From: a bacterium OL-1
GTDB lineage: Bacteria; Actinomycetota; Coriobacteriia; Coriobacteriales; Atopobiaceae
Direction: 5' to 3'
NCBI GenBank assembly: GCA_000752675.2
Contig: LM994626.1
Span: 656,794 to 720,793 of the forward strand
Length of the DNA stretch: 64,000 nt
Shown one piece after another: positions 7,343 to 9,743 of the stretch. Numbering within the stretch: the stretch's first letter is position 1; every line of letters starts with the position of its first letter. The notes under the pieces were generated by a model. The model saw only the letters and a program-made list of their open reading frames with translations. It ran no database searches and was not told where the DNA came from. The position numbers and the translations under genes are program-made.

Positions 7343-7789
7343 ATGGCAGGCTACAAGTCCAAGCAGATGATCGTCATGAGGCGCGACCTCAAGATGCGCA
7401 AGGGCAAAATCGCTGCCCAGGCAGGGCACGCCTGCGTGGAGGCAACGCTCATGGCGCTTGCGCGCGAGGGGCGTCTTGACCAGGTACGTGTTCGCACGGC
7501 GCCAGACGGAACGCCCACATGGGTCTACCTCGACCACCCCGAGGCAGACTCCACCGCGCTCTCGGACTGGTTCGACTCCGGCGTGGCAAAGGTCTGCGTG
7601 TACGTAGACTCGGAGGACGCGCTACTCAACATTGCAGAGAAGGGCCGGGAGCAGGGCTTTGCCGTGGCTCTCGTGCGCGATGCCGGTCTCACCGAGTTCC
7701 ATGGCGAGGCAACGCTCACCTGCCTTGCATTCGAGCCGCTTCCCGCCGAGAAGATCGACCCCATCACGGGAGACCTGCCACTCTACTAG
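7343..7789 (+). CDS. Peptidyl-tRNA hydrolase, Pth2 (archaeal/eukaryotic) family
   Basis: A 148-residue Pth2-type enzyme that releases peptides from tRNA dropped during translation. The family's KGKIAAQAGHA segment (about residues 21-31) and the C-terminal DAGLTEF...TCLAFEP...ITGDLPLY block are both present, and the length is typical. The ATG at 7343 has GAGG 6 nt upstream; that GAGG overlaps the stop of the cation efflux gene. Pth2 is the usual enzyme of archaea and eukaryotes but also occurs in some actinobacteria. Whether a bacterial pth exists elsewhere in this genome cannot be seen. Confidence 0.85.
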   Translation: MAGYKSKQMIVMRRDLKMRKGKIAAQAGHACVEATLMALAREGRLDQVRVRTAPDGTPTWVYLDHPEADSTALSDWFDSGVAKVCVYVDSEDALLNIAEKGREQGFAVALVRDAGLTEFHGEATLTCLAFEPLPAEKIDPITGDLPLY

Positions 7790-7803
7790 CACCTTCACTG
7801 CCA

Positions 7804-7832
7804 TGAGACAAAGGGACAGTCTCTTTGTCTCA
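7804..7832. repeat. 29-nt palindromic repeat, copy A
   Basis: An inverted repeat with arms TGAGACAAAG and CTTTGTCTCA around a short variable centre. The same 29-nt palindrome with near-identical arms recurs at 37743-37771 and 43965-43993. This copy lies 15 nt after the Pth2 stop. It could form a hairpin and serve as a weak terminator for the upstream operon, although no T-tract follows. Confidence 0.8.
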
Positions 7833-7904
7833 TATCCCACCGCTCAAATGGGATTTATTTCCATTCATTAATTCCTACTTGTGGAGTGGGTTTATAAGTG
7901 TCAC

Positions 7905-7990
7905 CCTTGTTCGTGACGAGTTGTCCGGCGGAGGAGCCTCAGCGGGGGCAGCCGACTTACCTCGTCACCAGACGTACAAGGAGTAGAAAG
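7905..7990 (+). promoter_or_regulatory. Structured 5' leader before cysK (candidate cis-regulatory RNA)
   Basis: GTGACGAG (7913-7920) pairs perfectly with CTCGTCAC (7961-7968). Inside that stem GTCCGGC can pair with GCCGAC with one bulge, and GAGG/CCTC forms a third short arm. The fold closes 10 nt before the AAGGAG of cysK, a placement typical of leader RNAs controlling translation. An AT-rich TTTATAAG at 7890-7897 may be part of the promoter. It does not match the SAM, SAH, cobalamin or THF riboswitch consensus as I know them. Function is inference. Confidence 0.45.
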
Positions 7991-8902
7991 ATGAAGGCAG
8001 CAAGGAAGATCGAGGCTCTTATTGGCTCAACCCCCCTGGTAGACCTTTCGGGACTCGTAGATGGCGCAGCAACCATCTACGGCAAGTACGAGGCCACCAA
8101 CCCCGGCGGCTCCGTCAAGGACCGCATTGCCCGCGCAATGCTCGACGCAGCCGAGAAGGACGGCAGTCTCAAGCCTGGCGGCACCGTGATCGAGCCCACG
8201 TCGGGCAACACCGGCGTTGGCCTTGCCATGCTTGCAGCCGCGCGCGGCTACAAGATGATCCTCGTCATGCCCGAGACCATGTCCATCGAGCGCCGCAAGC
8301 TCGCCGCGTCCTACGGCGCGCAGATCGTCCTTACGCCGGGCAAGGACGGCATGAAGGGCGCCGTCGCCAAGGCCGAGGAGCTTCGCCAGGAGACCCCGGG
8401 TGCCATCGTGGCAGGACAGTTCGTGAACCCCTCTAACCCGCAGGCCCACTACGAGACCACCGGCCCCGAGGTCTGGGCGGACACCGAAGGCACTGTCGAC
8501 TTCATCGTGGCCGGCGTTGGCACCGGCGGTACCATTTCTGGCACCGCCCGCTTCCTCAAGGAGAAGAAGGCCTCTGTCCAGGGCATCGCCGTCGAGCCCG
8601 CAGAGTCCGCGGTTCTCGAGGGCAAGCCCGCCGGCCCCCACAAGATCCAGGGCATTGGCGCGGGCTTTGTCCCCAAGACCTATGACGCCTCCGTTGTCGA
8701 CGAGGTCGTTCCCGTTGCCTCCGCAACCGTCATCGACACCAAGAAGCGCCTCGCGGCCGACTACGGTCTGCTGGTTGGCATCTCCTCTGGCGCAGCCGTT
8801 GCCGCTGCCGTCGAGCTTGCCAAGCGTCCCGAGAACGCAGGCAAGGTCATCGTTGCCATCCTCCCCGATACCGGCGAGCGCTACCTCTCGATGGACCTCT
8901 AA
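7991..8902 (+). CDS. cysK: Cysteine synthase A (O-acetylserine sulfhydrylase)
   Basis: A 303-residue PLP enzyme that makes cysteine from O-acetylserine and sulfide. The PLP lysine is K43 in NPGGSVKDRIA. The substrate loop TSGNTG and the glycine-rich phosphate site GTGGTISG are present, and the length fits the family. The ATG at 7991 has AAGGAG 8 nt upstream; an earlier in-frame start at 7898 would read through the structured leader and is rejected. The stop overlaps the ATG of the serine acetyltransferase gene (TAATG), so the two consecutive pathway enzymes are translationally coupled and may form the cysteine synthase complex. Confidence 0.96.
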   Translation: MKAARKIEALIGSTPLVDLSGLVDGAATIYGKYEATNPGGSVKDRIARAMLDAAEKDGSLKPGGTVIEPTSGNTGVGLAMLAAARGYKMILVMPETMSIERRKLAASYGAQIVLTPGKDGMKGAVAKAEELRQETPGAIVAGQFVNPSNPQAHYETTGPEVWADTEGTVDFIVAGVGTGGTISGTARFLKEKKASVQGIAVEPAESAVLEGKPAGPHKIQGIGAGFVPKTYDASVVDEVVPVASATVIDTKKRLAADYGLLVGISSGAAVAAAVELAKRPENAGKVIVAILPDTGERYLSMDL

Positions 8903-9576
8903 TGGCAGCCGCAACGACTGGCGTCGCCAGCGCTGCTGGCTCTGCCGAGGACACGCGCACCGTTGACGAGATGTCGCTCTTCGAGGTCATGCGCGAGGAC
9001 GCCCATGCGGCGCTCGAGCGCGACCCGGCGGCAAGCTCAATCTGGGACATCGTGTTCTACTCGACCGGAACCCATATCGTCTGGGCCTATAGGCGTCACC
9101 ACTGGCTCTACACCCACGGCATGAGAAGCCTTGCTCTGCTCCTTGCCAAGCGCACGCGTCGCAAGCTTGGGGCGGACATCTTCCCCTCCGCGCAGATTGG
9201 CCGGCGTTTCTCCATTGACCACGGCATTGGCGTAGTCATTGGCGCCACGTCGATTATTGGTGACGACTGCCTTATCTACCAGGGGGTTACCCTTGGCATG
9301 ACCGGCAAGCACGGCGGCAAGCGCCACCCTACGCTGGGCAACAACGTCATGGTGGGCGCAGGTGCCATCGTGCTGGGCAATATCACCATAGGCGATAACG
9401 CCAAGGTCGCCGCCGGTTCCGTTGTTGTACACGACGTGCCGCGCGACGTCACGGTGGCCGGCGTTCCCGCCAAGGTGGTGCGCGATCGCCGCTTCAGCGG
9501 ACCACGCCTCGTGGAGGACGACTTCGATCCCACCAAGCTGGACGACGAGAACATCCGCTGGTCCTGCGCGCTGTAG
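8902..9576 (+). CDS. cysE: Serine O-acetyltransferase
   Basis: A 224-residue left-handed beta-helix acetyltransferase that makes O-acetylserine from serine and acetyl-CoA, feeding the CysK encoded immediately upstream. The catalytic region FSIDHGIGVVIGATSIIGDDCLIYQGVTLG, split by hexapeptide repeats, and GKHGGKRHPTLGNNVMVGAGAIVLG are typical. The N-terminal helical domain is shorter than in E. coli CysE, as in many Gram-positive versions. The C-terminus does not end in the Ile that docks into CysK in enteric enzymes. It is followed by a strong hairpin with T-tract at 9611-9653. Confidence 0.95.
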   Translation: MAAATTGVASAAGSAEDTRTVDEMSLFEVMREDAHAALERDPAASSIWDIVFYSTGTHIVWAYRRHHWLYTHGMRSLALLLAKRTRRKLGADIFPSAQIGRRFSIDHGIGVVIGATSIIGDDCLIYQGVTLGMTGKHGGKRHPTLGNNVMVGAGAIVLGNITIGDNAKVAAGSVVVHDVPRDVTVAGVPAKVVRDRRFSGPRLVEDDFDPTKLDDENIRWSCAL

Positions 9577-9610
9577 CTTCTCGGCGGGCCTGTTCATGGA
9601 ATACCGGCAA

Positions 9611-9653
9611 GCGAGCGCTCCCGTGTCTTTCGACGCCGGAGCGCTCGTTTCTT
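9611..9653 (+). terminator. Terminator after cysE
   Basis: CGAGCGCTCC (9612-9621) pairs with GGAGCGCTCG (9638-9647) and is followed by TTTCTT, a plausible intrinsic terminator for cysK-cysE. It also forms part of the left arm of the symmetric repeat element centred on 9687. Confidence 0.75.
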
Positions 9654-9743
9654 ACGAATGCGTCAAAGTGTGCCCTCCGGAGACAAGTTGTCTCCGGAGG
9701 GCCATGTCTGTTGCAATCGCCGCCAAAAGGGGCCTTCCGGCAA
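9632..9743. repeat. Symmetric palindromic element, copy 1
   Basis: The core is a 25-nt palindrome at 9675-9699 (CTCCGGAGAC / GTCTCCGGAG). About 34 nt to the right is CTTCCGGC (9734); a similar distance to the left, on the other strand, is CTCCGGCG. Related elements with the same core length and arm spacing occur around 17710-17734 and 57541-57565. This one lies between the convergent cysE and MFS transporter genes. Confidence 0.7.

Follow-up and report, generated by a model that had tools for sequence, protein, structure and literature searches.

A conserved hairpin with a CCAG tag in cysK leaders, probably at the 5ˊ end of the mRNA, in Olsenella-like bacteria

The window, which is the whole stretch of 64,000 nucleotides analysed here, carries the adjoining genes cysK and cysE preceded by a leader that had been proposed to contain an undescribed regulatory RNA. 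Both genes, and the leader parts from 7869 onward, lie on the forward strand. The gene cysK (7991–8902, with its ATG at 7991) encodes cysteine synthase A, as indicated by a TIGR01139 score of 414 bits against a cut-off of 350.95. It is overlapped at its stop, at 8902, by cysE (8902–9576), which encodes serine O-acetyltransferase and scores 187.6 bits with NF041874, over the cut-off of 150, and 210.3 bits with TIGR01172, just under the cut-off of 210.65. A Shine-Dalgarno sequence, AAGGAG, is found at 7978–7983. There is also an in-frame GTG at 7898 that lengthens the cysK frame to 334 amino acids (7898–8902) by carrying it upstream across the hairpin described below. Because this GTG precedes the predicted transcript start, automatic annotation could misplace the start of cysK. 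Farther upstream, at 7803–7833, there is a palindromic intergenic repeat, GAGACAAAGGGACAGTCTCTTTGTCTC, which has similar sequences at about 80 strand-places (roughly 40 sites) genome-wide and may belong to a family of dispersed repeats or mobile palindromes.

The leader contains a perfect inverted repeat in which GTGACGAG (7913–7920) and CTCGTCAC (7961–7968) are exact reverse complements of each other. The perfect 8-bp outer stem and the bulged inner stem of the original prediction are both present as stated. The Shine-Dalgarno sequence lies 9 nt past this 8-bp stem, and 12 nt past the shorter, 5-bp stem defined below. However, perfect 8-bp stems with loops of 20–60 nt occur 124 times in the window versus 79 ± 8.5 times in 20 order-1 random windows, which is a mild window-wide excess in which the stem of the cysK leader is nothing special. 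Folding energy is also ordinary (z = 0.28 for 7860–8020 and −0.76 for 7915–7971) and was discarded as evidence for the element. Given this number of chance stems and the ordinary fold scores, the 8-bp stem alone constitutes no evidence for a functional RNA.

To compare leaders, upstream sequences were taken for 118 entries with CysK orthologues, comprising 112 genomes from the window's family, one other member of the order (L021), and five named records (an uncultured Olsenella sp., Olsenella massiliensis, two Atopobiaceae MAGs, and one Coriobacteriaceae MAG), some of which duplicate other entries. Since the named records have the same leaders, we take the family to be Atopobiaceae. The leader set leaves out seven family genomes with only remote CysK matches (58–60% identity) and 21 of the 140 family genomes that gave no CysK match at E ≤ 1e-100. 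Removal of identical sequences left 109 leaders, which a weight matrix sorted into 71 with a common promoter (scores of 22 and above) and 38 without it (5.2 and below).

The common promoter is predicted to be of the extended −10 type, with its −35 region placed inside a dyad. In the window, the predicted extended −10 consists of TGT at 7899–7901 followed by CACCCT at 7902–7907 (consensus TGn CAYnCT), and the predicted −35, TTGTGG, lies at 7879–7884, 17 bp before the −10. An alignment of 58 leaders, picked for CCYACY and RTGnCA and including one misplaced match (L184), shows TAATTCCTACTTG...TAGG followed by TGnCAYnCT, with the TTG of the −35 found in 55–57 of the 58 rows. The same arrangement is seen in 67 distinct segments picked only for CC[TC]ACTTG, which is the left half of the operator. 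All 67 have the T and G of TGn, while the C, A, and last T of CAYnCT are present in 64, 67, and 67 segments, respectively, and the spacing is constant throughout. A general sigma-70 scan, which demands near-consensus hexamers, gave no promoter at the cysK leader. The position of the extended −10 just upstream predicts that transcription starts at about 7915 (± 2), some 7–8 nt past the −10, and would thus place the hairpin at the 5ˊ end of the mRNA.

Overlapping the −35 is an operator-like dyad, TAATTCCTAC...GTGGGTTTATA, at 7869–7895, for which column conservation gives a left half of TAATTCCTAC and a right half of (G)TAGGAATT. This dyad resembles the sites of Rrf2-family proteins, to which we tentatively assign it. 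A second dyad in the window, ATCCCA...TGGGAT at 7834–7854, is possibly a further Rrf2-type operator, and inspection by eye found similar TCCCAC...TAGG(A/T)TTT dyads upstream in several relatives. The two dyads suggest that cysK has two tandem operators. Genome G000 has three Rrf2 genes that score over the cut-off. The one nearest to the IscR and CymR models, which falls under the cut-offs of both, adjoins genes that, by eye, resemble a SufS/SufU (suf) set. This IscR/CymR-like gene (L299:1008–1454) is a candidate for the regulator of cysK. The promoter and operator form the most conserved part of the leaders, and the operator dyad is present in leaders both with and without the hairpin. In one congener (L167, G003:C13:22725–23285), the operator and −35 region are absent or replaced while the −10, TGTCACCCT, and the hairpin are kept, reflecting either a natural deletion of the operator or an assembly fault.

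The conserved element spans 7915–7971 and differs in its limits from the stem originally proposed. In its RNA form, the motif reads R-C-[G/A]-A-G, a variable domain of 18–83 nt, C-U-[C/U]-G-Y, two free bases, and C[C/U]AG. In the window, these parts correspond to a 5ˊ arm of ACGAG (7916–7920), a variable domain of 40 nt with a hairpin of its own (7921–7960), a 3ˊ arm of CTCGT (7961–7965), and the tag CCAG (7968–7971). Thus, the five pairs of 7916–7920 with 7961–7965 are conserved, but the 8-bp stem as a unit is not. The window's species has one additional pair (7915/7966). The pair 7914/7967 can form in all eight congeners but not family-wide, and the outermost pair, 7913/7968, can form in only three of the eight. 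These last two pairs probably involve positions upstream of the transcript start. The purine-rich arm that had also been proposed turns out to belong to the domain that varies in both length and sequence.

Matches to the motif are found in 24 of the 71 distinct promoter-anchored leaders, compared to 0.05 expected from mononucleotide shuffling past base 9, and they span ten genera (g1, g4, g6, g11, g16, g17, g21, g27, g30, and g52). The tag is CCAG in 23 of these leaders and CUAG in one. A strict regular expression matched 27 of the 118 leaders. When leaders were selected without bias toward the tag, solely for a CGAG close to where transcription is predicted to begin, 28 of the 71 were recovered. 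A downstream CTCG is present in 23 of these 28, and C[CT]AG follows exactly 3 nt later in all 23. The 5-bp stem begins 0–4 nt past the predicted start in all 24 members, where the search pattern permitted up to 7, and the C of CGAG (or CAAG) sits 8–9 nt past the −10 in 20 of the 24. The cysK mRNA therefore probably opens with a small hairpin that is followed by a fixed four-letter tag.

Two of the five stem pairs covary among the 24 leaders of ten genera, so the stem stands up to a covariation test of the sort proposed with the original prediction. The first pair is AU in 12 leaders, GC in ten, and GU in two, and the third is GC in 23 and AU in one. The relaxed pattern itself limits the letters that can appear, and for this reason counts from an alignment also matter. 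In alignment A2, the pair next to CGAG is formed in 18 of 18 rows (AU in eight, GC in eight, and GU in two), four pairs are invariant, and a sixth, the next outward pair (columns 5/85), is formed in only eight. The third-pair variant comes from the tenth genus (L188), where the stem is GCAAG/CUUGC. Here a pair that never varies in the other members has changed in a compensatory manner, and the stem begins at the predicted start and is followed by the same spacing of two bases and CCAG. On a CysK tree of 36 rows with 25 members, which was quickly built and is weakly supported, the first pair changes state at least seven times and the motif's presence or absence changes at least eight times.

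Between the arms, no common letters were seen except for a C preceding CUCG in 23 of the 24 leaders. From the end of CCAG to the matched coding start, which in some rows is one or two codons inside the gene, the distance ranges from 16 to 43 nt without a fixed value. When the predicted leaders are folded to minimum energy, all five pairs appear in 19 of the 24 members and three of the five appear in L135, whereas no stem pair appears in the remaining four (L018, L026, L140, and the window itself, L009). For the window, the minimum-energy fold of the predicted full leader (7915–7990) is a different one. Three other roles for these sequences were considered and rejected. Base pairing between the tag and the first part of the coding region is backed by a full 5-nt complement of NCCAG in only six of 23 cases. 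A tRNA-like acceptor end (stem, N, and CCA) requires the infrequent sixth pair. Finally, a leader peptide is disfavoured because the in-frame GTG comes before the predicted start and a TTG frame from 7921 has, by eye, no Cys codon.

No motif is present in the 17 cysK leaders that represent other families of the order (16 plus L021), nor in three additional leaders from within the window's family (G026, G032, and G066); G018 yielded only a stub leader. A CM (R1) built from 18 of the 27 regular-expression members was searched against 140 family genomes at E ≤ 1e-3 and gave 16 matches, of which 14 are cysK leaders and two (L219 and L220) lie inside an open reading frame. Of the many weaker matches listed up to E = 3, ten were examined and have open frames across them. 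Against 395 genomes of the order at E ≤ 0.03, R1 gave five matches outside the family, each in a long open frame. This model is not very sensitive, since it gave no cysK-leader match in seven motif-bearing genomes (G027, G036, G061, G092, G122, G127, and G129), and the searches used strict filters with few candidates scored per genome. The pattern CGAGN{12,42}CCTCGYNNCCAG matched 44 times in six genomes versus 31 times in a reversed control, and five of the matches are cysK leaders. The model and pattern searches, within this limited sensitivity, found no motif at a second gene. G000 and G005 each have a second CysK-like gene, which by eye comes directly after an upstream frame.

Leaders lacking the motif are also informative. 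In genus g4, five leaders keep the element and 22 other distinct leaders, measured at 17–29 nt, are without it, indicating that the element is dispensable. Overall, 28 of the 71 leaders extend less than 35 nt past the predicted start, and another 19 exceed this length and have no motif. When the first nine bases of the 20 long leaders (at least 35 nt) outside the CGAG set, L188 included, were examined for a perfect 5-nt complement downstream, nine had one, compared to 2.8 expected, although the number of independent cases is smaller because L205 and L041 are near-identical and L024 and L142 come from one genus. This excess suggests that, in many long leaders, the 5ˊ end is closed in some other way. 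L024 and L142 have a different 5ˊ-terminal stem, CGGACG/CGUCCG, with no CCAG behind it. The finding that either the ribosome site is near the 5ˊ end, or the end can often be tied up in a hairpin, favours a role at the 5ˊ end of the mRNA.

No Rfam family accounts for the element. Rfam gave no matches at gathering scores in the whole window, and a relaxed search of 7780–8010 gave 11 sub-threshold matches, of which the only one over the motif is to a microRNA family (13.2 bits versus 68). Among eight member loci that were searched, only L180 had hits, all under gathering scores and located at 192–288, whereas its motif is at 85–121. The original prediction's remark that the leader is unlike the SAM and SAH riboswitch classes also holds, as none of these matches in Rfam 15 and no conserved core was seen. 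None of the titles or abstract openings listed by searches of the open-access literature describes the element, which may nonetheless have appeared in print. Together with the covariation at two pairs and the repeated first-pair changes on the tree, the lack of an Rfam match indicates that the original prediction caught a real conserved RNA, apparently undescribed, whose limits and probable function are corrected here.

What this RNA does can be approached by weighing several explanations. The main rival to the reading preferred below is that the leader is an autoregulatory binding site at which a protein, for example a pathway enzyme or some RNA-binding protein, reads the base of the stem and CCAG to alter the translation or decay of cysK mRNA. 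The conserved CGAG/CUCG and CCAG at fixed spacing beneath a free head are the trace expected of a protein bound at the foot of a hairpin, and the motif was found at a single gene. However, the stem is able to change, as seen in L188, and the distance from the tag to the coding start is not fixed, making this explanation rather unlikely. A different possibility is that the conserved letters act only as DNA, in the promoter, operator, and initial transcribed region, with the stem as a by-product. This would fit the high conservation of the promoter and operator just upstream and the presence of CGA near the predicted start in some leaders that have no motif. Yet the arms covary while lying 18–83 nt apart, and CTCG and CCAG are kept at a changing distance from the promoter, making the explanation improbable.

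Similarly improbable is the metabolite riboswitch originally put forward, which would sense O-acetylserine, cysteine, or sulfide. A structured, conserved leader ahead of a biosynthetic operon is what such a sensor would present, and some members do have alternative folds. However, no conserved binding core was seen in the variable domain, the searches, of limited sensitivity, located no second gene under the motif, and the predicted transcript has neither a terminator-like site nor a ribosome site buried in the stem. The repressor-type operator over the promoter, found even where the hairpin is missing, further opposes this idea. The palindrome around the −35, with its likeness to the repressor sites of the Rrf2 type, would explain sulfur control more simply, at the DNA level. 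Computed folds do pair CCTTGT (7905–7910) with ACAAGG at the ribosome site (7976–7981), but this pairing was rejected because CCTTGT is upstream of the predicted start; a transcript start farther upstream would make it possible. Lastly, a degenerate cysteine T-box leader might be imagined, given that cysK-cysE is under T-box control in Clostridium perfringens according to one report (PMC2940859). T-box-like sequences occur 33 times in the window versus 42 by chance, with none in the leader, the predicted leader is short (76 nt) and has no terminator, and no T-box matched at either gathering or relaxed Rfam thresholds. These features exclude a canonical T-box and make even a degenerate one exceedingly improbable.

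By sequence comparison, part of the family has a covarying 5-bp stem, a variable head, and a CCAG at a fixed distance of 2 nt. The explanation we prefer, to which we give about an even chance of being correct, is that these parts make up a lineage-specific 5ˊ-terminal leader element whose role is to protect or present the end of the mRNA, with CCAG serving as a contact. The stem would form from the first transcribed bases, and because it begins there, it would shield a long leader's 5ˊ end against end-dependent decay while leaving the ribosome site free. CCAG might then be contacted by a trans-acting factor or by the decay or ribosome machinery. An action on mRNA stability or on ribosome loading is thus the best reading of this element, and sulfur or cysteine status would most likely be sensed through a repressor of the Rrf2 type (IscR/CymR-like) acting at the −35 operator rather than by the leader RNA. 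The lack of a terminator-like site in 7780–9700 and the location of the Shine-Dalgarno sequence outside the stem support a leader element of this kind. Counting against it are the absence of the stem from four of the 24 minimum-energy folds, the finding of the element at one gene only, and its dispensability in g4. The invariant CCAG also counts against a pure stabiliser, which would need no such tag. A bolder proposal, that a protein or ligand reads the minimal 5ˊ-terminal stem and CCAG as a new class of cis-regulatory RNA, tying cysK decay or translation to cysteine status atop the Rrf2 repressor, seems to us unlikely.

The element adds a conserved leader RNA that is missing from Rfam in Olsenella-like gut anaerobes. 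It also offers a clean test case, with a single gene, natural relatives that have or lack the element, and a single invariant tag. If the CCAG tag is indeed a binding site, it would represent a new way of marking the 5ˊ end of an mRNA.

Several known systems invite comparison. CymR and CysK together control cysteine genes in Bacillus subtilis and Staphylococcus aureus, as stated in the report cited above (PMC2940859). The cysK locus is similar in having a dyad over the −35 and an IscR/CymR-like gene in the genome, but binding here is putative, and such control acts on DNA, unlike the RNA hairpin. The C. perfringens cysteine T-box, as presented in the same report, is likewise a leader RNA standing before the same two genes, whereas the leader described here has no T-box sequence, terminator, or Rfam match. 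The SAM, SAH, and other sulfur riboswitches are similar only in their position in the leaders of sulfur genes, as the cysK leader has no Rfam 15 match or visible conserved core. The ompA, papA, and aprE leaders, like the predicted cysK leader, have a hairpin at or near the 5ˊ end and a free ribosome site. Emory in 1992, Bouvet in 1992, Bricker in 1999, and Hambraeus in 2002 are said to have described 5ˊ-terminal stem-loops that stabilise mRNAs. To our knowledge, these stabilising leaders are single examples that lack a family-wide sequence tag. In contrast, the CGAG/CUCG stem of the cysK leader and the CCAG two bases beyond it are conserved in ten genera.
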